DNA of 64,000 bases from an uncultured SAR116 cluster alpha proteobacterium. GTDB lineage: Bacteria; Pseudomonadota; Alphaproteobacteria; Puniceispirillales; Marisalimonadaceae. Of the stretch, positions 40,679 to 53,851 are shown piece after piece. Made by a program: the position numbers and the translations under genes. The notes under the pieces were generated by a model. That model worked only from the letters and a program-made list of their open reading frames with translations, was not told the DNA's origin and did no database searches. Positions within the stretch are counted from its first letter, which is position 1; each line of letters begins with the position of its first letter. Where the stretch lies: assembly GCA_902616615.1 (NCBI GenBank), contig CACMTN010000001.1, forward strand, positions 62,001-126,000, written 5' to 3'.

Positions 40679-40755
40679 GGCGGAGTAGCTCAGCTGGTTA
40701 GAGCACCGGAATCATAATCCGGGTGTCGGGGGTTCAAGTCCCTCCTCCGCTACCA
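40679..40755 (+). tRNA. tRNA-Met (anticodon CAT), elongator type
   Basis: 77 nt with an encoded CCA (40753-40755). The acceptor stem GGCGGAG pairs with CTCCGCT (first pair G-U), the D-arm is AGCTCAGCTGGTTAGAGC, the anticodon stem CCGGA/TCCGG encloses the loop ATCATAA, and the T-arm reads GGGGTTCAAGTCCC. It resembles the elongator tRNA-Met of alphaproteobacteria; a lysidine-type Ile-CAT tRNA is less likely. It serves as the attachment site of the mobile element and is left intact. Confidence 0.95.
40708..40755 (+). repeat. attL core (within tRNA-Met)
   Basis: 48 bases from the anticodon stem through CCA, identical to 51088-51135. The base before (C versus G) and the base after (A versus T) differ, so these are the exact limits of identity. 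Confidence 0.92.
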
Positions 40756-40807
40756 AAAAACCTAATAAAAACAATGACTTAGGTAATTTGGTAAAAAATC
40801 AAATTGA

Positions 40808-40826
40808 CATTGACACACATTGACAC
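40808..40826 (+). promoter_or_regulatory. putative integrase arm-type sites, left end
   Basis: Two direct copies of CATTGACAC at 40808-40816 and 40818-40826. The same 9-mer occurs twice just inside the right end (51020-51041). Paired repeats at both ends of a tyrosine-integrase element suggest arm-type binding sites. They lie immediately upstream of the integrase ATG and could also autoregulate it. Confidence 0.6.
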
Positions 40827-40839
40827 TAATTTTGTATCA

Positions 40840-42018
40840 ATGTCACAAACTCAAGCTAGAACACAAACAGAGAGTATTTTTAGAGGTTTATCAATCTTTA
40901 AGAGTGTTCGTTCACCCAAATATCATTGTCGAATCTATGTTGGTAATAATAAACACATAGTAAAATCAACAGGTGAAACAAGTAAGATTGAGGCAAGAAA
41001 AGTTGCTATGGAACTTTTCCATGATTTGCAAAATAAAAAACGTATTGGAGTTCCAGATAATCAAACATTCAAATTTTTTTCCAATAAATTAATAGAACAA
41101 GAATTATTAAAAAAAAGTAAAAGGTTAGGGTCTGATACTAAGTCATACATTCTTAGAGATGAATATGGGTTAGATGCATACTTTGGCGATACAAATATTA
41201 AACAAATTACAACACACGATATAAGATTATATTTGGAAAAATTAGATAAGTCTTCTTCCAAACCATTGGCACACTCAACTAAAAGTAAATATCTTATAGC
41301 CATAAAAAAGGTCTTTAGAATTGCATATGAGATGACAATTATTGATAAGATACCATTACTTCCAAAATTAGACTCAAGGTTAAAAGATAATCCAAGACCA
41401 TCATTTAATGAAAAAGAGTACAAAAAATTATTAAAGGTGACTCGTGAAGAAGTTGAAAAGGGTGTAAAGGTGAGGGGGATACCTCTTACAATGGAACATT
41501 ATTATTTCATAGTGTTTATGGTTCATACTTTTTTAAGGCCTATTGAGTCAGAAATTTTTTCAATCAAACATAAAGATATAAAGGTTATTAAAGAAAAGCC
41601 TGAAAGATTAGAAATTCAAGTGATGGGTAAAACTGGCTATAGACAAGTTTCATCATTATCTTATGCAGTAGATTTTTATGAAAAACTTTGTGAATTAAAT
41701 AAAGGTCATACTGAAGATGATTTTGTATTTTTTCCAGATTATAAGAATAGAAGAACAGCCCTAAGAAATTTTAATAGACAATTTGGTTATCTGTTAGACC
41801 AGAGCAATTTAAGAACAGATTCATTTGGAACAAGAAGAACACCTTATGGACTTCGTCATTATTCATTACAAACAAGATTAAGAATGAGCAAAGGAAAAGT
41901 TAATATATATTGGTTGGCCAAAAATGCAGGTACATCAGTTGAACAACTAGAAAGATTTTATCTTAAAAATATGGAATTGAATGATGAGATTGTCCAAAAT
42001 CTACAAACATTTGGTTAA
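40840..42018 (+). CDS. int: tyrosine-type site-specific integrase
   Basis: Catalyses integration and excision at tRNA-Met. 392 aa from ATG 40840; a TTG at 40804 would add 12 residues across the arm-site repeats and is less likely. The N-terminal part (KYHCRIYVGNNKHIVKSTGE) resembles an AP2-like arm-binding domain, the middle is a helical core-binding domain, and the catalytic domain has the first Arg in TFLRPIESEI, GLRHYS (box II Arg-His) and the tyrosine in QLERFYLKNM. It is placed at the tRNA-proximal end as expected. Confidence 0.92.
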   Translation: MSQTQARTQTESIFRGLSIFKSVRSPKYHCRIYVGNNKHIVKSTGETSKIEARKVAMELFHDLQNKKRIGVPDNQTFKFFSNKLIEQELLKKSKRLGSDTKSYILRDEYGLDAYFGDTNIKQITTHDIRLYLEKLDKSSSKPLAHSTKSKYLIAIKKVFRIAYEMTIIDKIPLLPKLDSRLKDNPRPSFNEKEYKKLLKVTREEVEKGVKVRGIPLTMEHYYFIVFMVHTFLRPIESEIFSIKHKDIKVIKEKPERLEIQVMGKTGYRQVSSLSYAVDFYEKLCELNKGHTEDDFVFFPDYKNRRTALRNFNRQFGYLLDQSNLRTDSFGTRRTPYGLRHYSLQTRLRMSKGKVNIYWLAKNAGTSVEQLERFYLKNMELNDEIVQNLQTFG

Positions 42019-42273
42019 TTATCTATATAACAACCCTCTATGTTCATATTCCTCTATACTCTTAAATTCTTCACATCTATGAGTTCGAGCTTGATATTCT
42101 GGGTCATGTTTATATAAATTATCTGCAATCTCTATTGCTCTTTCTTTACATGCTTGTCTTGAAGAATAAGGGCCTCTCGTATCCATAAACTCTATACAAT
42201 ACTGGTTCTCAGTTGGTTTTCCCCATAAACAGGCAAGTACAAATGTTTCAAATAACATATTATTATGCACCAT
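42019..42273 (-). CDS. small hypothetical Cys-containing protein
   Basis: 84 aa (or 79 from the Met at residue 6), convergent with the integrase, with no gap. Four or five cysteines are spread through it (ACLWG, QYCIEF, QACKERA, HRCEEF), suggesting disulfides after export; the start LFETFVLACLWG is only weakly signal-like. No family recognised. Confidence 0.55.
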   Translation of the reverse strand: MVHNNMLFETFVLACLWGKPTENQYCIEFMDTRGPYSSRQACKERAIEIADNLYKHDPEYQARTHRCEEFKSIEEYEHRGLLYR

Positions 42274-42327
42274 AAAGTTTCAGTTAATTAATCATTCAAA
42301 AAGAATGTGTTGTAATTATGAACAGCC

Positions 42328-42343
42328 GTTTCCTATAGGAAAC
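42328..42343. repeat. 16-bp perfect palindrome
   Basis: GTTTCCTATAGGAAAC is fully self-complementary. It lies 55 bp upstream of the small minus-strand gene that ends at 42019. It could be a dimeric repressor operator or part of a terminator structure. Confidence 0.5.
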
Positions 42344-42354
42344 ACTTGAGAAGT

Positions 42355-42384
42355 AAAAAAGGGTATATCTCTACACCCTTTTTT
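42355..42384. terminator. bidirectional intrinsic terminator candidate
   Basis: The stem AAAAAAGGGT / ACCCTTTTTT (10 bp) has a 10-nt loop and is followed by T-runs on both strands. It would terminate transcripts entering from either side, including a minus-strand RNA from the 42.6-43.06 kb structured region. Confidence 0.65.
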
Positions 42385-42590
42385 TTACCCCAATGACAAA
42401 ACCAGAAAGAAATTTATGGCTGCAGAACTATATTCAAATGGAGATTAAAAATAAAACTGCAACCTAATACTATTTATAATTTTGTAGATGCAAAATAATT
42501 TAATTTTTTTTGCTTTTTTGCCAATCCGGTATGTACAACTTGTATAAATAGTAATGAAGAATGTAGATGTTCTTTTAATGTTAGATAGAC

Positions 42591-43059
42591 TTGAGTAGGT
42601 CGGTTGTAATACTCCAAGAGCCTTGATGGAAGTTGAGGCCGAATTCCTTTGAGTTAACACAAAGGTGCAATTCCATACTTGAGTATTGTGAGTCAGTTTT
42701 ACATCAATACATTCCTAATCATTGAAAAATGTCTGCCCAGGCTAAAATGGCAGTAAATAATTATTAGAAAGACAAGGGACTAATCATACCCTTATTAGAT
42801 ATACAAGGTAATCACATCTGCAGTATATCTAAACCGAAGTTGAGTAGAGAAAGAGGTCTTAATGCATAATCCCAGAGATATGGTTTTGACTGAATGTGAA
42901 GCACAGGTTCTTCCCTCACAACTTAATTGATTCCAAAGGTGATACTATTGGTTAATTAAGTTTCTCTGATGTGATGTGTTCTTCTGGTTGCCAGACTCAA
43001 GTAATAGAAATTCATACTTAATCTACATGGTTAAGTATGTCTTTTAATTGCCTACTCAA
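42591..43059. ncRNA. candidate large structured RNA (strand unresolved)
   Basis: Gene-free and visibly less A+T-rich than its flanks. A closing helix pairs TTGAGTAGG (42591-42599) with CCTACTCAA (43051-43059), 9 bp perfect. Inside are perfect hairpins: 42646-42651/42660-42665; 42675-42678/42683-42686; 42733-42737/42749-42753; 42774-42778/42789-42793; 42796-42804/42823-42831 (9 bp); 42921-42928/42954-42961 (8 bp, with a nested CCAA/TTGG); 42983-42987/42991-42995; 43013-43021/43031-43039 (9 bp). Large ornate RNAs such as GOLLD and ROOL occur in phage and island settings; I cannot assign a class. It ends 22 bp before a small plus-strand gene, so a structured leader is the alternative. Confidence 0.6.
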
Positions 43060-43081
43060 ATAATTAAAACTGGAGAGAGAA

Positions 43082-43288
43082 ATGAAACAAATAACAAACA
43101 CTAGAATTGAATCAATAAAAGTTTTTTTAGAAGATATTAGAACTAGAGATAAGAATGATTGGTACACTAAAATTATTTTAGATGCAGGTATCCTAGAATA
43201 TTATCAAGAAAAATTAAGAAAAGAATATATCAAATTAGGTTTACACCCTTATCCACTTGAGTATTTGCAATCAAGAAAAGTTGTATAA
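43082..43288 (+). CDS. small hypothetical protein
   Basis: 68 aa, charged and helical (FLEDIRTRDKNDWYTKIILDAGILEYYQEKLRKEYIKLG in outline), no Cys, no signal peptide. The start ATG is preceded by GGAGAGAGAA, a good ribosome site. First gene of a short plus-strand run with the 219-aa protein and the RHH protein. No family recognised. Confidence 0.6.
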   Translation: MKQITNTRIESIKVFLEDIRTRDKNDWYTKIILDAGILEYYQEKLRKEYIKLGLHPYPLEYLQSRKVV

Positions 43289-43316
43289 ATAGTAGGGTAC
43301 TTATTAAGGATTTAAC

Positions 43317-43976
43317 ATGACTATAATACCTTTAGAATTTGGCCATAATGAAAAGTTAAAGAAAGAACAAAACAAAGTTCAATCTTATGAAATGGCGCTA
43401 AATCAGATTAACAATTCACAATCAAATTACACAGATTCAATTAATGCAAAAAATGACAAATATATTTTTGATGCCATGAAAAAAGTTAGTAAATCTGTAT
43501 CAGGAATTAATGAAGATTTAAGTAGAAGAAATGGTTCATTCTTTTTCAATAATCCATCATCCCATACAGCAGCACAGAAAAGTATCCGTGCTTTAACGGA
43601 TAAAGAAGATAATGAAAATGCAAATGATTATAAGAAAACTTTGTATGGTCAAAAATTAATAAAAAAATTTGGTAATCCAGATGAGTTGAAAGTAATGATG
43701 AACATTAAATCAAGACATGATACCAATGGTCAACTTGGTATCCGTCATAAAAAGATAAGAAACAAATTAATTGATAAATATAAAAATCGATTGCAAAAAC
43801 CAATAAAAATTCCAGAAGTGAAAGTCGAAAAGATAACACACCAAAAAGAAGAATTACTTTTAGGTGTAAAACCTCGTTGGAAAGGCAATAAAAGAACTTA
43901 TTTTAATAATTTAAATGAATCTTTACAGGTCAAAACAATGGGAAAATTTAATAAAGAGGAAATAATTTATGACTAA
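43317..43976 (+). CDS. hypothetical basic protein of the mobile element
   Basis: 219 aa, Lys/Asn-rich, predicted soluble with a low-complexity middle and a basic C-terminal half (KIRNKLIDKYKNRLQKPIKIPEVKVEKI). I do not recognise a domain. Its position between the putative structured RNA and an RHH DNA-binding protein, with an 8-bp overlap to the latter, would suit a replication, mobilisation or packaging-hijack accessory protein, but no relaxase or replicase motif is visible. Confidence 0.6.
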   Translation: MTIIPLEFGHNEKLKKEQNKVQSYEMALNQINNSQSNYTDSINAKNDKYIFDAMKKVSKSVSGINEDLSRRNGSFFFNNPSSHTAAQKSIRALTDKEDNENANDYKKTLYGQKLIKKFGNPDELKVMMNIKSRHDTNGQLGIRHKKIRNKLIDKYKNRLQKPIKIPEVKVEKITHQKEELLLGVKPRWKGNKRTYFNNLNESLQVKTMGKFNKEEIIYD

Positions 43977-44139
43977 GCAATTACATTTTCATGCACCTAA
44001 AGAAATTGTAGAAAAATTTCAAACCATTACTGAAAAAGAAGATAGGTCACAATCGTATCTTTTACGAAACATTGTTACTCAATTTGTACAAAATTATGAA
44101 AATAATAATGTCAGTACTCCTCTATCCGTGCAGAGGTAA
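43969..44139 (+). CDS. ribbon-helix-helix (CopG/Arc-like) DNA-binding protein
   Basis: 56 aa, overlapping the previous gene by 8 bp. It begins MTKQLHFHAPKEIVEKFQTI and continues with DRSQSYLLRNIVTQFVQNY: a short beta strand (QLHFHAP) followed by two helices, the RHH fold that dimerises on DNA. It may repress its own operon or act as a relaxosome/partition accessory factor. Its 3' end is part of an inverted repeat (44123-44152) that could be its operator. Confidence 0.65.
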   Translation: MTKQLHFHAPKEIVEKFQTITEKEDRSQSYLLRNIVTQFVQNYENNNVSTPLSVQR

Positions 44140-44152
44140 AATAGCACGGATA
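44123..44152. repeat. 9-bp inverted repeat overlapping the RHH gene end
   Basis: TATCCGTGC (44123-44131) and GCACGGATA (44144-44152) are perfectly complementary around a 12-nt loop. No T-run follows, so an operator or a DNA-processing site is more likely than a terminator. Confidence 0.55.
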
Positions 44153-44186
44153 ACTTTATGATTTACATCTTCCAAAACTATGAATC

Positions 44187-44232
44187 GGACAGAACATAAA
44201 AAAGGCTTAAAAAAGATATCTGTGTTCTGTCC
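44187..44232. repeat. 10-bp inverted repeat in intergenic region
   Basis: GGACAGAACA (44187-44196) and TGTTCTGTCC (44223-44232) are perfect complements 26 nt apart, in the 222-bp gap between convergent transcription units. The second arm is followed by CTTTTACTT. It may be a long-loop terminator, or part of an origin or transfer site together with the repeat at 44123-44152. Confidence 0.5.
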
Positions 44233-44361
44233 CTTTTACTTCCAAGTTTGAAATATATCGGTTCAAAAAATTGTCATACATTGGCGATTTATCGTTGGGT
44301 CATATATATACAAAAAGTATAAAAACGCCTATCAGTCGTGCTTAAACGAACCTGATTTATA

Positions 44362-44667
44362 TTAAAACCTAGTCTTTCTTGGAACATATTCTTTACAAAA
44401 TGTATTGAAGAGTTTGGTATATGCATCTACTTCTTTATAAAAATAATCTAACCACATAATACTCTCTTTATCATATGGCATATTAACAATTTCTTGGTCA
44501 GTCCTCTTTTTTCGTTTATGTAAAACTATGTTTTGATAACTACTTTCCGTTAAAATTTCTATTACTGCACAATGTTGTGATGTGAAACCTTGGTCAGTTT
44601 TAGGGTCGTTGGCATATGAACCAAAACTAATGAACATAAATGTAAGTGTTGTAATGAATAGTTTCAT
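44362..44667 (-). CDS. small secreted protein, paralogue A
   Basis: 101 aa: signal peptide at 1-19 (MKLFITTLTFMFISFGSYA), then a mature domain with two Cys (HCAVIEI and FCKEY) and the motif WLDYFYKEVDAYTKLFNTFCK. Clearly paralogous to the 89-aa protein at 45140-45409 (same signal peptide and C-terminal motif). Probably a periplasmic disulfide-bonded helical protein; function unknown. Confidence 0.7.
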   Translation of the reverse strand: MKLFITTLTFMFISFGSYANDPKTDQGFTSQHCAVIEILTESSYQNIVLHKRKKRTDQEIVNMPYDKESIMWLDYFYKEVDAYTKLFNTFCKEYVPRKTRF

Positions 44668-44741
44668 AATGACTCCTTTAAGTTTTACCTACTTAATGGA
44701 TTCAATACTTTATTATATAAACTATCAACTAAATGTTTTGT
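44614..44741. repeat. 128-bp direct duplication, copy 1
   Basis: Matches 45356-45483 over 128 bp with 4 differences. It covers the 5' end of paralogue A, its ribosome site, and the last 18 codons of the methyltransferase fusion gene. Confidence 0.9.
44685..44741 (-). pseudogene. 3' remnant of the methyltransferase fusion gene
   Basis: 57 bases encoding TKHLVDSLYNKVLNPLSR and a stop, equal to the end of the 45427-47568 protein except one Glu-to-Asp change. The fragment abuts the lipoprotein stop codon (44743) and has no start. It shows that a block carrying a small secreted-protein gene and the methyltransferase 3' end was duplicated, or that a second methyltransferase gene was lost. Confidence 0.85.
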
Positions 44742-44742
44742 T

Positions 44743-45060
44743 CTATCTGGTTCTATCACAGTTCTTTTTTGACATTATACCTTTTAAGTACATTTCTCTT
44801 TGATTTGCTGCATCTATTGCCTGATTAGCATTTTCATAAGTTGCCCAGATTCCGATTGGAAAAACAAGTAATCTTCCGGCATTATTCCAGTTTACTCCTT
44901 TTTCACTTTCCGCCTCTTTAATGAATTTGTCTAGTTCATCAACTTCATTTTGTAAACCTACACAAGACAGTTGTTCATCATTTGGTTGGATAATATCGAC
45001 AACATGAGGTGTTGCACATGATGTAAGAAATAGAAGACTAAAAACAAATATATATTTCAT
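44743..45060 (-). CDS. small lipoprotein
   Basis: 105 aa with a lipoprotein signal (YIFVFSLLFLTSCATP, lipobox LTSC, Cys at 15), a helical segment (LQNEVDELDKFIKEAESEK), then a short hydrophobic hairpin (GRLLVFPIGIWATYENANQAIDAANQRE) that resembles glycine-zipper-free membrane hairpins in small envelope lipoproteins. No family assigned. Its stop codon lies 2 bp from the duplicated methyltransferase tail. Confidence 0.7.
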   Translation of the reverse strand: MKYIFVFSLLFLTSCATPHVVDIIQPNDEQLSCVGLQNEVDELDKFIKEAESEKGVNWNNAGRLLVFPIGIWATYENANQAIDAANQREMYLKGIMSKKNCDRTR

Positions 45061-45139
45061 AAAATCATACTCCAGAGTAATGTTTCATAAACATCATACA
45101 ATATTTCTATTGTAATGTCTTTCTCCCAAAATAAATTAA

Positions 45140-45409
45140 CTAGTCTTTACAAAATGTGTTGTAAAGTTTGGTATATGCATCAATTTCTTTATAAAAATAA
45201 TCAAGGAATTTAATAGAATCAGAATTGTAAGGTCTACGAACAATATCTTTACCTGTACCACTTTTTTTAAGATTAAAGATATTGTCCCAAGCAGTATCGG
45301 CCTCAAGTTTTAAGATATAACAAGCCTTACCATCGAAAAGTTTTCTTTCATCAGAATATGAACCAAAACTAATGAACATAAATGTAAGTGTTGTGATTAA
45401 TAGTTTCAT
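45140..45409 (-). CDS. small secreted protein, paralogue B
   Basis: 89 aa, signal peptide 1-18, two Cys (KACYILKL and FCKD) and the motif FLDYFYKEIDAYTKLYNTFCK shared with paralogue A. It begins 18 bp downstream of the methyltransferase fusion gene on the same strand, with AAGGAGTCATT as ribosome site, so it is probably the fourth gene of that operon. Function unknown. Confidence 0.7.
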   Translation of the reverse strand: MKLLITTLTFMFISFGSYSDERKLFDGKACYILKLEADTAWDNIFNLKKSGTGKDIVRRPYNSDSIKFLDYFYKEIDAYTKLYNTFCKD

Positions 45410-45483
45410 AATGACTCCTTTAAGTTTTACCTGCTTAATGGATTCAATACTTTATTATATAAACTTTCAACTAAATGTTTTGT
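45356..45483. repeat. 128-bp direct duplication, copy 2
   Basis: The copy attached to the intact methyltransferase fusion gene; 124 of 128 bases match 44614-44741. See that entry. Confidence 0.9.
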
Positions 45484-47568
45484 GAGTAATGGCGGAACCA
45501 TTCTACCAATTCTTTCGGCTCTTTGATTAAACGAACCAGATAGTTTGAAATCATCTGGTAAAGAAGTAAGTCTCTTTAATTCATTAAGAGTGAAAGTTCT
45601 ATTTTCTAGAGGGTGATATTGTCCACCAAAATTTTTTAACTGTGCCCCAGTTTGTGTAAGAGTATTAATTGGTTGGTGAAATGCTGCACGATTAGTATTG
45701 AAGTATAAATTCTTAAACTCTGGGTTATCGTAATTAGCCCTATAATTTTCTGATGGGTCAGTAGGTATCAATTTAAGAATTTCATATGCAGTTGAAGTTC
45801 TACATTTTCTTTTAGTAAGGTTTACTTCTTTTTTATTTAATTCTACACCCTGAAGTGCATCATATAATGATGTTTCAAAAGAACTACCTTTAGGATAAAG
45901 ACTCAATATGTCATTATCAGATTCAATATTTGTTTGTATTGCTATATCTTTTCTTACACCTACTAAAAAGAGTCTTCTTCTTTTTTGTGGAACACCAAAA
46001 TTAGAACTCTTTAATACCTTAAAATTTACAAAAAATTTATCTCTTAACTTCTGAAGTGAATCTTCAAAAACAGCTGATGTTTGTATTTCTGGAACATTCT
46101 CTAAAATAATTATTCTAGGTGTTATAGAGTGAGCCAATTCAACAAATTCATATATCAGTAATCCAATATCATCTTGAACTGTGTCAGAATATTTTACATT
46201 CTTTTGTTCAATCTTTTTCTCACCTTTTCCAACTTGTGAAAAAGTAGAACATGGTGGAGAGCCGTCTAAAATATCTAATTCATTTTTTTCGATACCATAT
46301 GAATTAAACCATTCAATTATACCTTTTTCACCCTTACCAGATTTAGTGATTTTTCTAATATCACTTCCATCAATTGGAGTATCTGGAAAGTTCATAGAAT
46401 ATGTTTTTATAGCCTCTGGAATGAATTCATTTATGAGTAATACTTTTCCACCTGCAAGTCTGTATCCAGTACTAGAACCACCACCACCTGCAAATGTAGA
46501 AACAACTGTAAATAATTCTCTACTAGATGATTCATAAACATCTTTCATTTTGTAGGGTTCAAACTTAATTATCTTTCCATCATCAGGTGTAAAATTAATT
46601 ATGTTTTTTGCGTCAGCATAATTTCTTAAATTTTTTGAAATCCATAATCTATGAGCCTCATTTGATTTTTGATGTTTTTTAATTTTTTTCTCATCTAATG
46701 TTGAATGTAGTCTTGTAAGTGATGTAAGACATTTTGTTACATCATCAGTTTTATAATTTTTGAAATTTATTTCCTTATCAAAAATAATTGGTTCAAAAAA
46801 ATCAGTCATAGAACCACCTTTTTGTAATGGTTCATTTTTAACTTTCATCATTCCAATTTTTTCAAACTTCTCTGGGAAACAATCTTTATAAAAACTCTTG
46901 TTATATGGTTTGTTCATATCGTTATCAGACAATCCATATAGAGTTTCTTTGAAAGTCTTACCCTGTAATGGACAACAAATAATTATGCCCATTTCTTTTG
47001 CCACAGCAACAATTTTTTTTGATGCATCTGAGGTGATATTATTATTTACAATATAATCCCAAAATTCTTTTGAATTTTTTTTATTCCAAACTGCATGTTT
47101 TCTGTTATCTGGTGAGGGATTAAAACCACAGACTATTTTATCTAACCCTAATTCTTTACATTTCTGAAACATTGACAAAAAGGGATAAAGAACTTCAAGT
47201 TCAGTTTTTTTGTTTACGCCATATTCATAGACAAGTTTTTCAAAAATATCTCTAGGATTTTCTTTAGGTATTATTACTTTATGAAATTCCCAACCTAAAA
47301 TTTTACAAGTTTTTTCAGCCTGTTCACAATCTCTGGAATATACGCCTTCTCTTTCATAAGAAATACAGATTGGTTCTAACCCAAGATACCAACCCATCAA
47401 TCCGAGTAATGTAGAATCAACACCACCAGATAAAAATATTGGAAGTTTATTATTTGCTGTAGCAGATAAAAATCCCATCTTAGTGTACTGTTTTGTAATT
47501 TCGTTGATGATATTTTTTTGGAGATTATTCAATGCAACACAACCAATCTTTTCGTTTAGTTTTTTCAC
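45427..47568 (-). CDS. asparagine-synthetase-like / cytosine-C5 DNA methyltransferase fusion
   Basis: 713 aa, two enzyme domains. Residues 40-300 are a PP-loop ATPase: SGGVDS at 47-52, and at 217-255 a segment (NKPYNKSFYKDCFPEKF, then MKVKNEPLQKGG) patterned like the C-terminal part of Asn_synthase. There is no N-terminal Ntn glutaminase, so ammonia must come from elsewhere. Residues 350-713 are a C5 methyltransferase: FAGGGGSSTG (359-368), catalytic Cys440 in GSPPCSTFS, ENV (490-492), QKRRR (528-532), and motif IX/X RTFTLNELKRL then RIGRMVPPLL. In motif X the almost invariant Asn (IGNxVPP) is Arg689. I infer transfer of a carboxymethyl group from carboxy-SAM followed by ATP-driven amidation. 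Overlaps the upstream gene by 44 bp. Confidence 0.85.
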   Translation of the reverse strand: MKKLNEKIGCVALNNLQKNIINEITKQYTKMGFLSATANNKLPIFLSGGVDSTLLGLMGWYLGLEPICISYEREGVYSRDCEQAEKTCKILGWEFHKVIIPKENPRDIFEKLVYEYGVNKKTELEVLYPFLSMFQKCKELGLDKIVCGFNPSPDNRKHAVWNKKNSKEFWDYIVNNNITSDASKKIVAVAKEMGIIICCPLQGKTFKETLYGLSDNDMNKPYNKSFYKDCFPEKFEKIGMMKVKNEPLQKGGSMTDFFEPIIFDKEINFKNYKTDDVTKCLTSLTRLHSTLDEKKIKKHQKSNEAHRLWISKNLRNYADAKNIINFTPDDGKIIKFEPYKMKDVYESSSRELFTVVSTFAGGGGSSTGYRLAGGKVLLINEFIPEAIKTYSMNFPDTPIDGSDIRKITKSGKGEKGIIEWFNSYGIEKNELDILDGSPPCSTFSQVGKGEKKIEQKNVKYSDTVQDDIGLLIYEFVELAHSITPRIIILENVPEIQTSAVFEDSLQKLRDKFFVNFKVLKSSNFGVPQKRRRLFLVGVRKDIAIQTNIESDNDILSLYPKGSSFETSLYDALQGVELNKKEVNLTKRKCRTSTAYEILKLIPTDPSENYRANYDNPEFKNLYFNTNRAAFHQPINTLTQTGAQLKNFGGQYHPLENRTFTLNELKRLTSLPDDFKLSGSFNQRAERIGRMVPPLLTKHLVESLYNKVLNPLSR

Positions 47569-48487
47569 CTACAAGTAAATAGGGGGCTGTTCCTAATTGT
47601 TCTGCATACTCTAATAAGTGTTGTAAATTACTCGATTTAATTGGAAGTTTATTTGATTTAGAGATACCTCTTACACCTCTTACAAATACAGTTGAATCAT
47701 TCAAACTAGAAAACCCAGATATATTTTGTTCTGGTATCAAAGTATCTCTGTAATTAAACCCAAAGGCATATAAACATTTTAAGGCTGTTTCAATATCATT
47801 CATTGTACTTTGAAAAACACAATGTAATGTTCCGGAGTGTGAAGTTTTTCTAATGTCAGCCAATGGATATTCTTCATAAATGTAATCATCTAATTCTAAA
47901 TTTCTCCATCTCGACAATTGTTCTGGAGTAGGAATTATTACAAAAGTAGAAAAATATTTCTTAGCACTGATTAATTTTTCAAGGTTAAAAACATTACCTT
48001 GTAGTTCTGTTGATTTTCCAAAGGCATTTTCAATTTTATTTTGTGTGTCAGTTGTCTTTGCATCTCGAACAATTTCTCTGTGCTCTCTCATAGTTTGGTC
48101 TACAAAGGTTTTTTCTGTATCAGGTGTAATTTTATCTTCAATAAGTGTTACAAATTTTTGAGAGCCTTCATCTTCTCCATAATGTGATTGATATTGTCTA
48201 TCTAAATTAGTTAGTTCATATAATGTCGAAAATGAACCTGGCAGTTTATTCCTATAATTCAATAGATTTTGATTTGAACCTATAGATACCCATTTAGATA
48301 ATGTACCTTTGGACATTCCTATTTTTTCTGCCAATTGATTTTGAGAAGTATCATCAAGTTGAGTTACTGCTTCATTTATTACAATAGCCATATCGATTAT
48401 ACTTTTTTGAACTTCGGTTTTGGCTTGTAAAATTCTTTTTACATGCTCATTAAGGGTGAGAGTATTTGGTAAAATTACTTCATTCAT
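47525..48487 (-). CDS. HTH protein with degenerate MT-A70-like domain
   Basis: 320 aa. Residues 1-75 are helical with an HTH (QLAEKIGMSKGTLSKWVSIG, 51-70) like ParB/KorB-type proteins. Residues 178-320 follow the MT-A70 adenine-methyltransferase pattern: YPLADI, GTLHCVFQS, ETALKCLYAFGFNYRDTLI, FVRGVRGIS and the C-terminal LVGEKTKRKDWLCC matching the family's ending. The catalytic DPPW is missing; IIPTPE (184-189) stands in its place, so it should be inactive. By analogy with METTL14-like partners it may help the methyltransferase bind DNA. Two bp after the CmoA-like gene and overlapping the fusion gene by 44 bp. The MT-A70 call is pattern recognition, not a search result. Confidence 0.65.
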   Translation of the reverse strand: MNEVILPNTLTLNEHVKRILQAKTEVQKSIIDMAIVINEAVTQLDDTSQNQLAEKIGMSKGTLSKWVSIGSNQNLLNYRNKLPGSFSTLYELTNLDRQYQSHYGEDEGSQKFVTLIEDKITPDTEKTFVDQTMREHREIVRDAKTTDTQNKIENAFGKSTELQGNVFNLEKLISAKKYFSTFVIIPTPEQLSRWRNLELDDYIYEEYPLADIRKTSHSGTLHCVFQSTMNDIETALKCLYAFGFNYRDTLIPEQNISGFSSLNDSTVFVRGVRGISKSNKLPIKSSNLQHLLEYAEQLGTAPYLLVGEKTKRKDWLCCIE

Positions 48488-48489
48488 AC

Positions 48490-49416
48490 TTAATCTTTTT
48501 TGATTGCAATCAGACCAATAAAATTAAAGTTTCTCCAAAAAACCTGAATATCTTTGAAACCAACTTTTTTAAGATTATTGATTATTGTTTCTTCAGTATC
48601 CAACTTGGCCAATTTTCGTAATACTTGTTCTTTATCTAACAACTCTTCTTCTGAAAAGAACTGTCTCTTGTATCCCATATACATGAAATCCATCATGTTC
48701 TGGAACTTTGCATCAGGAGAGAATACTTTTTCACACAAAACAAAACCACCACCTTTGATTAGGTCATAATTGAAAATGTCATCTAACATTCTTTCTCTAT
48801 CAGCCTCCGGAATAAATTGAAGCGTGAACATAGACACCATGAATGACGAATACTTTTCTTTTCGTTTCATTCTTTCTGGGGCTTTCCAATTACGAACATC
48901 ACAAGGTAAATTAATCATTATGGTACTCGTATCATTTTTTATTATCTTCTTTTTTTTACCTCTCAAATCTGCATCTGTGAAATGTTTGAGAAATGTAGGA
49001 TTACCCTCAACACCAAAATAATTCACATTATCTATGTCAATATTTGCAGCCATGATTCTCCTAATCATAGTACCCTCACTACAACCTAAATCGTAAACAC
49101 TACTATTAGGTGTAATAAAATACTGACTAATCTTTTCGACATCATCTCTTAGATGGTCATAACCTCTTATGGATTTGTGTATGTGGTCATCAAAATAAGG
49201 TGCCATGTTAGAGAATGAGAATTTTTTATAATCACGAGCATACTCACCATATTTTTTCACATTTTTTTTCTGATTTTTTTCTGAAATTTTATCGAGTCTT
49301 TTATACTCTTCCTGTACGGCCTTTAATTTATCTTTCATATCTTTCATTGCTGCATATTCAGCCTCTTTCAATTTAAGAGCCTTTTCTTTTATACTTTTAT
49401 ACAGTTCATCATTCAT
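48490..49416 (-). CDS. CmoA-like carboxy-SAM synthase homologue
   Basis: 308 aa. After an N-terminal coiled coil absent from E. coli CmoA (about 10-60), the sequence tracks CmoA: FDDHIHKSIRGYDHL, SVYDLGCSEG (107-115), FTLQFIPEADRERMLDDI (197-214), GGGFVLCEK, and the end VFWRNFNFIGLIAIKK. CmoA makes carboxy-S-adenosylmethionine from SAM and prephenate, normally for tRNA wobble uridine. Here it lies on a mobile element, first in an operon with a DNA methyltransferase, so carboxy-SAM for DNA is the natural inference. The Arg that contacts the carboxylate in E. coli (R199 as I recall) is not aligned exactly; Arg267 lies one helical turn away. SD AGGA precedes the ATG. Confidence 0.85.
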   Translation of the reverse strand: MNDELYKSIKEKALKLKEAEYAAMKDMKDKLKAVQEEYKRLDKISEKNQKKNVKKYGEYARDYKKFSFSNMAPYFDDHIHKSIRGYDHLRDDVEKISQYFITPNSSVYDLGCSEGTMIRRIMAANIDIDNVNYFGVEGNPTFLKHFTDADLRGKKKKIIKNDTSTIMINLPCDVRNWKAPERMKRKEKYSSFMVSMFTLQFIPEADRERMLDDIFNYDLIKGGGFVLCEKVFSPDAKFQNMMDFMYMGYKRQFFSEEELLDKEQVLRKLAKLDTEETIINNLKKVGFKDIQVFWRNFNFIGLIAIKKD

Positions 49417-49526
49417 AGTTTTATTCCTGATAAAATAATAAGATAATTATGTAATCTTTGCAGTAAAAAATAAATAATTCAGTTAAATTATTGCCGTACC
49501 TAAAACCTATGTCAATTTGAAAAAAT

Positions 49527-49551
49527 AAAACCCTTGCTGAACAAGGGTTTT
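49527..49551. terminator. intrinsic terminator between recombinase and CmoA-like operon
   Basis: Stem AAAACCCTTG / CAAGGGTTTT (10 bp, perfect) with a 5-nt loop CTGAA. It lies 45 bp after the serine recombinase stop, separating it from the modification operon, whose promoter should be in 49417-49526. Confidence 0.85.
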
Positions 49552-49595
49552 GAATCTTCTAATTTGATGTTCCTATAACAAGTATTAAAGGTACA

Positions 49596-50225
49596 TTATC
49601 GTGCATACTCCAAATCTCCACCTAAGTCTTCAATACTATCAATCAAATCTTTCTCAATAACTTTTTTGATGGTATCACTGCCAACTTTCAATTGTGACTT
49701 AATGTTTCTGATTGATGCTCCAGCTTTTTTCATTTCAAGAATTTTGTTTCTTGTAAGACCATTGATAGATTTCTTTCCGCCAATTCTACCTTTCTTCCTA
49801 GCCTTTTCCAAACCAGACCTTACTCGTTCAGAAATAAGGTCTTTCTCATATTGAGAAACTGCATTCATTACGTTAAAGAAAAAATCTCCAACAATAGTAC
49901 TCGTATCTACATTTTGATTCTTAATTAACAAATCAATTTTTTTAGATTTTAATATTGCCGATATCTCACACATATTTTGAACTGAACGACCAAGTCTACT
50001 CAACTCAAGTGTAACTACCATTTCAAACTTTCTGGTCATTGCATCTTTCAACATTTGGTCTAATGCAGGTCGTGATTTTATTGAACCAGAGATTCCCTCA
50101 TCAACATATTCTTTGATGATTGTGTAATTATGATTATCACACAATTCTCTCAACTCTATGAGTTGTCTTTCACAAGACTGTTCTGTGGTGCTCACACGAG
50201 CATAAATACAAACTTTTTTTGTCAT
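49596..50225 (-). CDS. serine recombinase (resolvase/invertase)
   Basis: 209 aa small serine recombinase. The catalytic Ser is in YARVSTTEQ (residues 8-16), the Arg-rich active site in ELSRLGRSVQNM (74-85), the E helix region DLISERVRSGLEKARKKGRIGG follows, and a C-terminal HTH (SIRNIKSQLKVGSDTIKKVI) binds DNA. It may resolve element dimers or invert a segment; I saw no obvious invertible repeats. It has its own transcription unit bounded by the terminator at 49527. Confidence 0.92.
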   Translation of the reverse strand: MTKKVCIYARVSTTEQSCERQLIELRELCDNHNYTIIKEYVDEGISGSIKSRPALDQMLKDAMTRKFEMVVTLELSRLGRSVQNMCEISAILKSKKIDLLIKNQNVDTSTIVGDFFFNVMNAVSQYEKDLISERVRSGLEKARKKGRIGGKKSINGLTRNKILEMKKAGASIRNIKSQLKVGSDTIKKVIEKDLIDSIEDLGGDLEYAR

Positions 50226-50295
50226 AAGTACCTCGTAAAATGTAATGGAATATGTAATAATTTTACTAAATTGGAGTAGGGGAGTCCATGCATAT

Positions 50296-50520
50296 ATGAG
50301 CTATTATTGTATGAAATGTCAGTATCCATTTAAGAAATTATGGAGGTGTAAGTACGGCCATCATAAAGAATGGATATCTATATGTTACAACTGCATAATA
50401 GATATAAGAAGTCTCAGGGTTCGATTTATTAGTCAAATTGAGAATATTAGAATGAGGTTTGCATTTCCAAGTAAGAATCCAAGTGTTCTTAGGTTAAAGT
50501 TATTTACTGTTACAATTTAG
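50296..50520 (+). CDS. small Cys-rich (zinc-finger-like) protein
   Basis: 74 aa from ATG 50296 (an upstream ATG at 50245 adds 17 residues). It begins YYCMKCQYPF and has CKYGHH and CYNC: two CxxC pairs plus Cys/His, a possible zinc knuckle. The C-terminal half is basic. Divergent from the recombinase. The coding call is moderate because length is short and no homologue is recognised. Confidence 0.45.
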   Translation: MSYYCMKCQYPFKKLWRCKYGHHKEWISICYNCIIDIRSLRVRFISQIENIRMRFAFPSKNPSVLRLKLFTVTI

Positions 50521-50600
50521 GCCCCCACCCAAAACTGAGTGTTTATACATAATCTATAAAATCAAGGTACAGATACCTGAAAAATTATAAGGAGGTTTAT

Positions 50601-50777
50601 TTGTTTTTTAAAAAAAAATGGGAATACAGTTGGATGACAACTAAATCAACAGCAGATATGGAAGTTACACGACATGAGCTCAATCGTAAAGGTGAAGAGG
50701 GATGGGAACTTGTAAACTCAATGTATTATAATGATACTGGACACACAGAATTTTGGTTTAAAAGAAGATGTTTATAA
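50601..50777 (+). CDS. DUF4177-like mini-protein 1
   Basis: 58 aa, TTG start with AAGGAGG 5-11 bp upstream (50589-50595). The pattern KKWEYSWM ... LNRKGEEGWELVNSM ... TEFWFKRR matches the DUF4177 small fold (K-WEY, then GEEGWELV, then a final FKR strand). Function of the family is unknown. It is followed by a second protein of the same kind 25 bp on. Confidence 0.65.
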   Translation: MFFKKKWEYSWMTTKSTADMEVTRHELNRKGEEGWELVNSMYYNDTGHTEFWFKRRCL

Positions 50778-50802
50778 CATCCAAAATTATGAGGAAATAG
50801 TA

Positions 50803-51003
50803 ATGAGTGAGAATCCATGGAAAGGTGATAAATTTGAATATTATTGTGAGACTAATAATTTTGAATATCCAATTGATGAACAAAAATTTCTTAATCAGAT
50901 GGGAAAATATGGTTACGAGTTAATTCTTATTAGACCTAAATTGCAAAACAGTTCTAGATATTATTTCAAAAGAAAAATAAAAAACATTGATACAAAATTA
51001 TAG
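50803..51003 (+). CDS. DUF4177-like mini-protein 2
   Basis: 66 aa from ATG 50803, with GAGGAA upstream. It shows the same architecture as the preceding gene: KFEYYCET ... LNQMGKYGYELILIR ... RYYFKRK. The two are likely tandem paralogues in one transcript ending just before the right arm-type sites. Confidence 0.6.
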   Translation: MSENPWKGDKFEYYCETNNFEYPIDEQKFLNQMGKYGYELILIRPKLQNSSRYYFKRKIKNIDTKL

Positions 51004-51019
51004 GAAAAAATATATAAAA

Positions 51020-51041
51020 CATTGACACTATACATTGACAC
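51020..51041 (+). promoter_or_regulatory. putative integrase arm-type sites, right end
   Basis: CATTGACAC at 51020-51028 and 51033-51041, the same 9-mer as at 40808-40826 near the left end. An 18-bp repeat, AATAAAAACAATGACTTA, is also shared between 40764-40781 and 51056-51073. Confidence 0.6.
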
Positions 51042-51087
51042 AAAATAATTTATACAATAAAAACAATGACTTATAATAAAGATTCAG

Positions 51088-51135
51088 GGAATCATAATCC
51101 GGGTGTCGGGGGTTCAAGTCCCTCCTCCGCTACCA
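51088..51135 (+). repeat. attR core
   Basis: Perfect 48-bp copy of the tRNA-Met 3' half (40708-40755). It lacks the acceptor 5' strand and D-arm, so it is not a functional tRNA. Marks the right end of the element. Confidence 0.92.
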
Positions 51136-51361
51136 TTAGTACATCAAATAATAAGCCATCAATAAACGAATAGCAAAAAAAAAGCTATGATAACAAGATA
51201 TTAATTAATCATTTTATTGCTTTTCCTAATACTTTGGTTAATGCACCACTGACCTTTTCTGTTAAGTTTTTGTTGAGTTTATTTAGTTTAAAAAGCTTTT
51301 TACTTTTTTGATAAGTATTGACTCATAAATTGAAAAATGCTGAGATTTTAAAATACTTATC

Positions 51362-52795
51362 ATGTTAATTAAATACATATTGGAGAAAAAATTGTTATTT
51401 AAAAATTTATTTTGGATTTTATTATTTTTTACATTAGTTGGTTGTGGAGGAGGAGGTGGTGGTGGACTAGCAAATGCTCCAGTTTCTCTAACTGTTTCCG
51501 CTCCTACTGCAATTAGTTCTTCTTTATTAACTCAGGGATCTACATATTCTGGTTCTACTGGAAATTATGGACAGTCAACTTCCATATCAATGAGTCAATA
51601 TAGTTCTTATGGTGTACAAACATTAAACAATACTTCAGCTAATCAAATTCATCCTAAAGCTCATTTAACAGACACAGGTGCAACAACAGCCTGGTCAAGT
51701 GGATGGACAGGGTATGGAAAAAATATTGCTATTCTTGATGATTTCTCAAGTGCAGTGAATATATACTCAGAAGTAACATTGTCCAGAACAGCCACTCAAA
51801 CAGGTTATGATAGCGATACTTTTCCCAGAAATGCAGTAACAATGACTGGAACCTATGACGTTGATTACAAAGTTAAGTTTTCTACAACACATGGTGATCT
51901 AGTATCTAATATAGCCGGTGGAGATGCTAGCGCAGCTTCGACAAGTACAACATATAATTTTGATGCATCAGCTGTTACAGAAACAAATTGTGATAAAAAT
52001 GGTGCAACCGCTTCATACTCATGTACTCGTGACAATTTATCCTTTATTTGGGACGATTCTTCAACAGATTTAACTTTTAATAAAGTTGCAGGTGTTGCAA
52101 AAGATGCAACAATGGTTCATTCCTCTCTTAATCTTAGTAGTGGAAATGCAACAAGTTTTACAACTATTAGTGAAAAATTTAACAATCTAACATCTGGAAA
52201 TCATGTCATAAATATGAGCTTTGGTGTACTTTGGAATTCTGGTGTCACTTGGTCTGATATTGAGTCTGGATGGTCACCTTATAACTATGGTGCATATTTC
52301 AATTCTACAGATGCCGTTGTCGTGGTTGCAGCAGGTAATTACGCAGCTCCTTGTGCTACTAATGATATGGGGAGCTGTAATGCTGCTGCTACAATTCTTA
52401 CAGTCGACGGAGATACAGCTAATCAAACTATTGTAGCCGGAGCATTAGATGCTGCTGGTACAGGTATTGCAACATATTCTAATCAAGCAGGTACTCTGAA
52501 ACAACGTTATTTAATGGCGAGTGGAGAAACAGGTTATAAAAACCAATCTGATAATGCTTCTACAGTTGGAACATCCTTTTCAGCACCTCGTATTTCTGGA
52601 GCAGCTGCATTAGTAAGGCATAAATTTCCAAATTTAACTGGTGCACAAACTGCATCAATACTTCTTCTTACTGCAGATAAAGATATAGATGGGAACGGTG
52701 TTAACGAATTTAGTGGTGTCTCAGATATCTATGGACATGGAAAATTAGACTTAGGAACTGCTCTTTCACCAGTTGGTTCATTGGCGGTGCAATAA
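51362..52795 (+). CDS. subtilisin-like (S8) serine protease lipoprotein
   Basis: 477 aa. Lipoprotein signal LFFTLVGC (Cys28) followed by a Gly run, then a Ser/Thr/Gly-rich linker to about 100. The S8 catalytic set is complete: Asp126 (IAILDD), His177 (TTHGDL), oxyanion Asn326 (VAAGN) and Ser405 (GTSFSAP). The end LDLGTALSPVGSLAVQ is like the passenger end of autotransporter subtilases, but no beta-barrel follows in frame. One bp before the next gene, which may be its partner. Located just outside attR. Confidence 0.88.
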   Translation: MLIKYILEKKLLFKNLFWILLFFTLVGCGGGGGGGLANAPVSLTVSAPTAISSSLLTQGSTYSGSTGNYGQSTSISMSQYSSYGVQTLNNTSANQIHPKAHLTDTGATTAWSSGWTGYGKNIAILDDFSSAVNIYSEVTLSRTATQTGYDSDTFPRNAVTMTGTYDVDYKVKFSTTHGDLVSNIAGGDASAASTSTTYNFDASAVTETNCDKNGATASYSCTRDNLSFIWDDSSTDLTFNKVAGVAKDATMVHSSLNLSSGNATSFTTISEKFNNLTSGNHVINMSFGVLWNSGVTWSDIESGWSPYNYGAYFNSTDAVVVVAAGNYAAPCATNDMGSCNAAATILTVDGDTANQTIVAGALDAAGTGIATYSNQAGTLKQRYLMASGETGYKNQSDNASTVGTSFSAPRISGAAALVRHKFPNLTGAQTASILLLTADKDIDGNGVNEFSGVSDIYGHGKLDLGTALSPVGSLAVQ

Positions 52796-52796
52796 C

Positions 52797-53336
52797 ATGA
52801 AAAGACTTTTTATTACGTTCAATTGTTTCTTCTTAATTTTGATGTCGGGCTATCATACAGCATATGGAAGTAATTGGGGAATTAATGAGCTAAGAGGAAA
52901 CTCTGATTACGTCAGAGGGCCAATATGGTCAGGTATTTTCAAAAGTTATAATGGAGAAACTTATGACGCCTCTGAATTTTACAAACAAAAAAATACAAAT
53001 GTAACATTAGAAAGTTCAATATATTATTCTACTGAAAAAATTATATTTTTCTTCCCAACATATTTTGACAATGGTTATAAATCTGACCTATTTAAATCTG
53101 AACCAATAATTAGTTTTGGTATAGGAGCATATACAAAAATGGGCCCTTATTCTATAGAATTTGTTGGGAAAAACCTTGTTGAATTAGGTGGAAATACATC
53201 TGAAAGACCGTGTGTAGATAGTTTTGAAAGACAATATCACTGCGGATTAGGTGTTGCATGGTCTGATTATGGTACATCAAACCTAAATCATGATTTAGAA
53301 TCAACTTTAAATCTAGTTATAAAATATGATTTTTAG
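52797..53336 (+). CDS. secreted, possibly outer-membrane protein
   Basis: 179 aa from ATG 52797 (1 bp after the protease stop); signal peptide ending near AYGS. The mature part is rich in aromatic residues and alternating strands, and it ends VIKYDF with the terminal Phe typical of beta-barrel outer-membrane proteins. Two Cys (RPCVDSFERQYHCG) could form a disulfide loop. Translationally coupled to the S8 protease; perhaps a short barrel or an autotransporter-derived partner. No family recognised. Confidence 0.65.
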   Translation: MKRLFITFNCFFLILMSGYHTAYGSNWGINELRGNSDYVRGPIWSGIFKSYNGETYDASEFYKQKNTNVTLESSIYYSTEKIIFFFPTYFDNGYKSDLFKSEPIISFGIGAYTKMGPYSIEFVGKNLVELGGNTSERPCVDSFERQYHCGLGVAWSDYGTSNLNHDLESTLNLVIKYDF

Positions 53337-53739
53337 AGTAATTATTTCTATTTCTTTATGTTTTTTTCTTTTTGGTTGTTTTTTTACAGGATCAAATAAT
53401 AAATATTTAAACTGTTTCATGACTGAAAGAAATATCAACGATAAAAAGGCTAAGAAAAAGTGGATAGAAAAATACTTACCTAGAAGTTTTCACTACTCAA
53501 TTACTAACTCAGAGATCCGTTTTAATTCACTAAATAAAACGATTAATTTATCTGAAGCTAAAAAAATTAACGGTCAATTAATTTTATCTGGAGATATATT
53601 CTTGAAAAATTCTAATGGACATAATTTCCCAATGACGTATCAAATGACGTACAATGAGCAAACAAAATTATATATATTAAAAGCATCACCTCATAAATTG
53701 TTTAAATTTGGAGAACAAAAAGGTTTTTGTGTTAATTAA
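53326..53739 (+). CDS. small lipoprotein
   Basis: 137 aa, overlapping the previous gene by 11 bp. Lipobox LFGC (Cys18) after a hydrophobic signal. The rest is mixed strands/helices with three further Cys (NCFM and GFCVN). No family recognised; a third member of the protease cluster. Confidence 0.65.
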   Translation: MIFRVIISISLCFFLFGCFFTGSNNKYLNCFMTERNINDKKAKKKWIEKYLPRSFHYSITNSEIRFNSLNKTINLSEAKKINGQLILSGDIFLKNSNGHNFPMTYQMTYNEQTKLYILKASPHKLFKFGEQKGFCVN

Positions 53740-53851
53740 TATTCACAAATGATCCAAAATTTTCTTGTTAATATTTCATATTATACTACATAAATCATTT
53801 ATAATGACGTATTATTTTGTAAGCTAAAAATAATAAAATTTGGAGTTTATT

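Follow-up and report, generated by a model that had tools for sequence, protein, structure and literature searches.

What does a gene cluster make that pairs a CmoA-type synthase of carboxy-S-adenosylmethionine (Cx-SAM) with a DNA cytosine C5 methyltransferase-like protein on a bacterial mobile element? Such a cluster lies in the window, a 64,000-nucleotide stretch of contig CACMTN010000001.1 from an uncultured SAR116 cluster alphaproteobacterium. An earlier note on this DNA had described three coupled minus-strand genes, and all three are present (Table 1): cmoA, a helix-turn-helix (HTH)/MT-A70-like gene that we call H, and cmoYX, a fusion of an amide-ligase-like half to a C5-methyltransferase-like half. 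From homology, diagnostic residues, gene order and the surrounding element, we propose that they probably form a Cx-SAM-dependent cassette for DNA hypermodification, of the CmoA/CmoX/CmoY type and borne on a 10.4-kb tRNA-Met integrative element.

The earlier note was aware of no natural operon of this kind, a statement now superseded because the pathway has been published in phages. The main text of Yang et al. (Nat Commun, Dec 2025; PMC12783734) describes CmoA, CmoX and CmoY in Synechococcus phage S-B43. SpCmoA converts S-adenosylmethionine (SAM) and prephenate to Cx-SAM, and SpCmoX is a cytosine C5-carboxymethyltransferase for a GC motif, the wild type of which takes only Cx-SAM and contacts its carboxymethyl group through Arg350. 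SpCmoY ligates glycine in an ATP-dependent reaction, so that 5-carboxymethylcytosine (5cxmC) is followed by 5-glycylcarboxymethylcytosine (5gcxmC), which is present in S-B43 DNA. The same text reports a ParBc (PF02195) partner with CmoX, the role of bacterial CmoA in the tRNA nucleoside 5-oxyacetyluridine (cmo5U), and another cluster of ligases, which have a glutaminase domain and are presumed to use ammonia. The words "fused", "MT-A70" and "prophage" are absent from that main text, and "fusion" occurs once, on ParBc domains and DNA methyltransferases generally (PMC12783734). No other paper on a natural system was found among those listed from the open-licence PMC literature, preprints apart.

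The transferase half of the fusion carries most of the argument. Pfam assigns DNA_methylase to residues 353-703 (E 2.2e-46), and phmmer against solved structures places SpCmoX (8yf3) first, over residues 338-710 (E 2e-75; runner-up E 4.8e-13). SpCmoX residues F25, E47, F48, D69, the SPPC motif and R350 are every one conserved, Arg350 being Arg689 of the fusion, and all Cx-SAM contacts named in the main text of PMC12783734 are retained. Arg350 and SPPC occur in 116/116 CmoX-like domains (94 distinct sequences), a set gathered by CmoX similarity that includes the window itself; it comprises 114 open reading frames (ORFs) with a matched stretch of >300 aa plus those of the viral contigs L143 and L146, shorter or split matches (L004, L006, L040, L041, L042) lying outside it. 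At the same position, 14 of 14 control C5 methyltransferases have Asn, the host's own among them. As far as sequence can tell, the transferase half has every CmoX feature that we tested. One of the split genes, that of Endozoicomonas ascidiicola (L040 7890-9010), is CmoX-like and divided across two frames.

The cmoA product is, as had been proposed, CmoA-like: searches of hidden Markov model and structure databases return TIGR00740 (E 1.6e-29, 103.3 bits), PRK15451 (E 1.5e-24), phrog_4752 (E 2.7e-48) and the E. coli CmoA structure 4gek (E 1.9e-23), and it is homologous to the proven SpCmoA (37% identity, E 4e-41). Arg199 of E. coli CmoA is a putative prephenate contact, on which no conclusion is based here. 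S-B43 genes are among the best phage matches of window CmoA and of CmoY plus CmoX. Both the TIGR00740 match (cut-off 193.3 bits) and the PRK15451 match fall below the curated cut-offs. The TIGR00740 cut-off is missed also by SpCmoA (115.6 bits) and by the CmoA proteins of viral contig L144 (90.9) and of G063 (104.1), a complete genome from the order to which the window belongs. Because a proven synthase fails it, this cut-off is no measure of Cx-SAM synthesis; it marks the tRNA-type equivalog. The route from SAM and prephenate through carboxy-SAM to 5-carboxymethylcytosine that the earlier note had suggested is well supported, since the enzymes are homologous to proven ones and the transferase retains the diagnostic residues. 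By analogy with S-B43, the cassette very likely makes 5cxmC.

The ligase half is CmoY-like. Its residues 37-274 match phrog_26038 (function unknown; E 2.5e-18), and it can be aligned with SpCmoY, the CmoY of Pseudomonas phage PaBG and 36 further distinct copies (39 including the window). SGGVDS, KKT and NKP..K are conserved in the window, the first being the SGGxDS motif of AsnB-type ATP pyrophosphatases, and the hits of a profile built from 11 CmoY rows include beta-lactam synthetase (8e-9) and AsnB (1.3e-8), each through its synthetase half. A G..AD loop that ends in an SKKA-like stretch, mostly SGWAADGYYGxSKKA, is found in 37/39 distinct CmoY copies. The window loop is not of this phage type and reads CGFNPSPDNRKHA; that of viral locus L043 reads TGFSSPLPDGRRDS, and L143 and L146 share the L043 loop. 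A fusion in a Hyphomicrobiales metagenome-assembled genome (MAG; L037) has TGWNADDHYGNTRE, closer to the phage loop, and is missing KKT and NKP..K. Pfam and NCBIfam scans found no glutaminase domain in the 713-aa fusion. On these alignments the amine may be glycine, another amino acid or ammonia.

By extension from the proven homologues, CmoA would convert SAM and prephenate to Cx-SAM, and the CmoX domain would transfer the carboxymethyl group to cytosine C5 with Arg689 holding the carboxylate. The CmoY domain would then adenylate the carboxylate with ATP and couple a small amine to it, both active sites being on one chain; we somewhat favor such an amide step after carboxymethylation. The modified bases would most likely protect the DNA of the element, and of the host, against restriction, although we regard that purpose, which is extrapolated from phages, as an even call.

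The middle gene does encode the HTH and MT-A70 fold that had been noticed: a Pfam scan finds the helix-turn-helix in the 320-aa protein, and the MT-A70 fold is recognizable. What has to be added is that the fold is DPPW-less, in 14/14 members aligned. DPPW is the catalytic motif of MT-A70 methyltransferases. Residues 31-173 of H match phrog_4715, and no phage match was found for H at E 1e-3. We rejected H as a ParB partner, as PF02195 is absent from it (Pfam at E 0.01) and hhalign against the PaBG ParB-like protein gives E 0.61. Also set aside was a co-linear H-like gene ahead of the L037 fusion (hhalign E 0.037, probability 1.4%), which is not counted as H. With its HTH and methyltransferase-dead fold, H would most likely bind DNA and target or regulate the modifying enzyme, a guiding or regulating role to which we give an about even chance. 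One chromosomal H homologue (L033 7611-8546) stands close to a MazG-like gene.

Table 1. Coordinates in the window of the cassette, its flanking signals and the ends and recombinases of the element.
Feature	Position	Strand	Remark
cmoA, CmoA-type carboxy-SAM synthase, 308 aa	48490..49416	-	N-terminal extension of ~65 aa
H, helix-turn-helix + C-terminal MT-A70-like fold without DPPW, 320 aa	47525..48487	-	
cmoYX fusion, 713 aa	45427..47568	-	CmoY-like ~aa 1-335, CmoX-type ~aa 336-713
Fusion N-part, ATP-dependent amide-ligase-like; C-part, cytosine C5-carboxymethyltransferase-type	within 45427..47568	-	
Terminator-like hairpin (49551-49527), then promoter-like TTGACA-17-AATAAT (49515-49487)	49487..49551	-	upstream of cmoA; consensus matches only
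Small ORF, 89 aa, N-terminus export-like	45140..45409	-	17 bp past cmoYX stop
attL, 3' part of tRNA-Met (tRNA 40679-40755)	40708..40755	+	
attR, identical 48-bp copy	51088..51135	+	
Tyrosine-integrase-like gene	40804..42018	+	Phage_int_SAM_1 E 2.7e-5 (above cut-off); XerD E 3.4e-5 (below)
Small serine recombinase, resolvase/invertase type	49596..50225	-	Resolvase E 3.7e-40; upstream of cassette

That the cassette sits on a mobile element is borne out by direct repeats, a tRNA-Met site and an integrase-like gene (Table 1): the element (40708-51135) is bounded by perfect 48-bp direct repeats. A Pfam scan of 11 ORFs of the element, with shorter or overlapping ones outside it, turned up no phage structural gene. 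The tRNA-Met gene is present in 5/5 relatives examined, one of which (G015) ended at a contig end. G012 has a near-empty site, in which sequence homologous to the right flank of the window (from 53758) begins ~30 bp after the tRNA; G036 carries ~2.5 kb of different DNA after tRNA-Met; and no right-flank match was found within the stretches fetched from G019 and G038. Within the genus, the tRNA-Met gene seems to be a hotspot for insertion. To the right of attR, 51136-53757 holds a subtilase-like gene (Peptidase_S8, E 6.7e-19) and two ORFs that are missing there in G012, and is perhaps a second island.

All three cassette reading frames are open and tightly spaced. The gap between the serine recombinase and cmoA contains a terminator-like hairpin and a promoter-like site, so the three genes may form a transcription unit separate from the recombinase; both signals are consensus matches only (promoter-like sites, 19 seen against 29.2 expected in shuffles; terminator-like, 2 against 1.4). 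The 89-aa ORF, which has no match in Pfam or NCBIfam, is possibly co-transcribed. The 3' tail of cmoYX and the small ORF are part of an imperfect tandem duplication (44387-45483, spacing 742-754 bp), whose copies at 44614-44741 and 45356-45483 are 97% identical.

The combination of CmoA, MT-A70-like H and ligase-methyltransferase fusion recurs outside the window: database scans give L143, L144 and L146, three nonredundant IMG/VR contigs in which the serine recombinase-CmoA-H-CmoYX order of the window is repeated. Single-sequence scans of viral contigs with the fusion and with H gave no matches; alignment scans did match, and the fusion alignment returned five loci. Besides the three named, these are L145, whose compared proteins are identical to those of L144 save one at 99.4%, and L147, a distant C5-methyltransferase match (25%); L144 and L145 are the contigs of L043 and L044, respectively. 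The cassette genes of L143 and L146 are 89-99% identical to those of L144, and the recombinases of the window and L144 share 35% identity. Behind these cassettes lie different genes: a 673-aa ORF with no Pfam match in L143, a TRM-like methyltransferase (411 aa) and a 341-aa orphan ORF in L144 (4814-7071), and, directly adjoining in L146 (4714-10725), HsdM-HsdS-HsdR of a type I restriction-modification system (Pfam). The cassette is constant, and the neighboring genes change. The 341-aa ORF resembles a nuclease by eye but has no match in Pfam, PADLOC, PDB or PHROG and a chance-level one in NCBIfam, so we make no claim for it. Among plasmids, neither the fusion (at E 1e-30) nor this ORF (at E 1e-3) had a match. 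Inverted repeats of 22 bp lie near the contig ends of L143 (130-151/10673-10694) and L144 (96-117/10606-10627); these contigs, 10.7-10.8 kb long and listed as viral, may be whole mobile elements.

CmoX matches of >600 bits occur in 2/136 genomes of the order and 2/385 sampled genomes of the class, G000 and G063 each time; two further class genomes passed on E-value at ~145 bits, and both are Asn-type. In G063 the order is CmoA-H-CmoX, where CmoX has no ligase half, and no CmoY match was found within the 16 kb read. In L037, CmoA comes after the fusion. A genome_contigs scan with two short patterns gave 6 loci of 104 stretches, which is a lower bound. Of at least 565 viral loci found, 80 were kept, many ended by contig ends and some redundant, and among the 80 there is a CmoA match in 61, a CmoY match in 49 and the fusion plus H in 2. 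Two CmoX-matching ORFs occur in 30 of the 80 (27 with both >300 aa; e.g., L045 4995-7233), perhaps representing two specificities. In a quickly built tree with 54 rows (5 controls), the window, G063 and L143 form one group (Shimodaira-Hasegawa-like approximate likelihood ratio test, SH-aLRT, 98) with L037 next (96), nested in a set otherwise of viral contigs and two MAG contigs; the nesting is provisional, as long branches meet at that group. The topology suggests that the cassette was captured from phages into islands.

Several observations weigh against a working hypermodification cassette in the window. Its CmoA lies under the curated cut-offs of the CmoA equivalog models, as does SpCmoA. 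In a Staphylococcus SPbeta-like phage (L006 4974-6673), a C5 methyltransferase gene, "hhaIM", adjoins cmoA and has Gly at the place of Arg350, an exception to the Arg350 pattern, so a cmoA neighbor alone is no proof. The altered ligase loop could mean another amine or an inactive ligase, and the AlphaFold model of the fusion is poor (pLDDT, the predicted local distance difference test score, 55.8; alignment of 5 rows) and lends no structural support. Chromosomal H homologues are present in 29/40 genomes of the genus and the two such loci that we read have no CmoA nearby, so the tie of H to modification is tentative. No restriction gene or nuclease was found in the element (11 ORFs by Pfam, 4 by PADLOC).

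Could the cassette instead be an ordinary 5-methylcytosine methyltransferase beside a CmoA that serves tRNA? Bacterial CmoA does act in tRNA cmo5U (PMC12783734), and Pfam calls the domain DNA_methylase, but we consider this extremely unlikely: the window keeps the Arg that touches the Cx-SAM carboxymethyl group in a Cx-SAM-only enzyme (PMC12783734), where all controls have Asn, and CmoA and CmoX are same-strand near neighbors in the window, G063, L037 and L144. The Arg350 position, with its 14 controls, likewise makes an ordinary restriction-modification methyltransferase unlikely. A decayed passenger of a dormant island would account for the altered loop and for the duplication just downstream, yet is very unlikely given three open, tightly spaced frames, intact CmoX catalytic residues and the presence of unbroken copies of these genes in relatives whose proteins are 30-57% identical.

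Two further alternatives concern what the cassette makes and what it is for. The CmoY domain might amidate with free ammonia, giving the 5-carbamoylmethylcytosine that the earlier note had envisaged. The window loop is unlike the phage loop and a presumed ammonia-using ligase cluster exists, but that cluster has a glutaminase domain, which was not found in the 713 aa, and the proven homologue SpCmoY uses glycine (PMC12783734); ammonia is possible, not favored, and on balance rather unlikely. It is improbable that the cassette is the modification half of a restriction/hypermodification defense in which host DNA carries the mark and a cognate nuclease encoded elsewhere cuts unmarked invaders. 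The Hsd genes right after the L146 cassette and the methyltransferase-like gene and 341-aa ORF after that of L144 fit such a system; against it, differing genes behind highly similar cassettes are as expected of swapped cargo, the L146 type I system possesses its own HsdM, and the window element has no detected nuclease. The CmoA/CmoX/CmoY-type cassette is the reading that we retain. More tentatively, and with a smaller chance of being right, there could be a non-phage branch of islands combining a serine recombinase, CmoA, a pseudo-MT-A70 guide and single-chain CmoY-CmoX, with a nonglycyl cytosine amide in chromosomal DNA owing to a different amine pocket, H as the DNA-targeting subunit and interchangeable cargo (e.g., type I restriction-modification).

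The published system is phage camouflage; the island copies suggest that carboxymethylcytosine may mark bacterial or island DNA too. The altered ligase loop hints at an amine, and hence a base, that may be new, and a single polypeptide with both transferase and ligase would lend itself readily to two-step DNA labeling.

In size class, tRNA target and tyrosine integrase, the window element presumably resembles the tycheposons of marine bacteria, small elements with a tyrosine recombinase that sit in tRNA genes. The cassette shares with S-B43 a Cx-SAM synthase, a C5-carboxymethyltransferase with SPPC and Arg350 and an AsnB-like amide ligase, in adjacent genes. It differs in having ligase and transferase as one protein, an HTH/pseudo-MT-A70 gene between cmoA and this fusion, an altered ligase loop and an N-terminal extension on CmoA, and in lying on a chromosomal tRNA-integrated element, whereas S-B43 is a 214-kb phage. 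PaBG and Synechococcus phage S-CRM01 likewise have CmoA near an Arg350-type CmoX, as separate genes unlike the window fusion; PaBG also has CmoY and a ParB-like gene, whose product does not match H in a profile comparison. In contrast to the MT-A70 proteins of MTA1c and METTL3-METTL14, H is without DPPW and stands with a cytosine C5 enzyme. The chemistry is already known; what differs from the published system is the one-chain CmoY-CmoX, its DPPW-less MT-A70/HTH partner and their location on a tRNA-Met-integrated chromosomal element.

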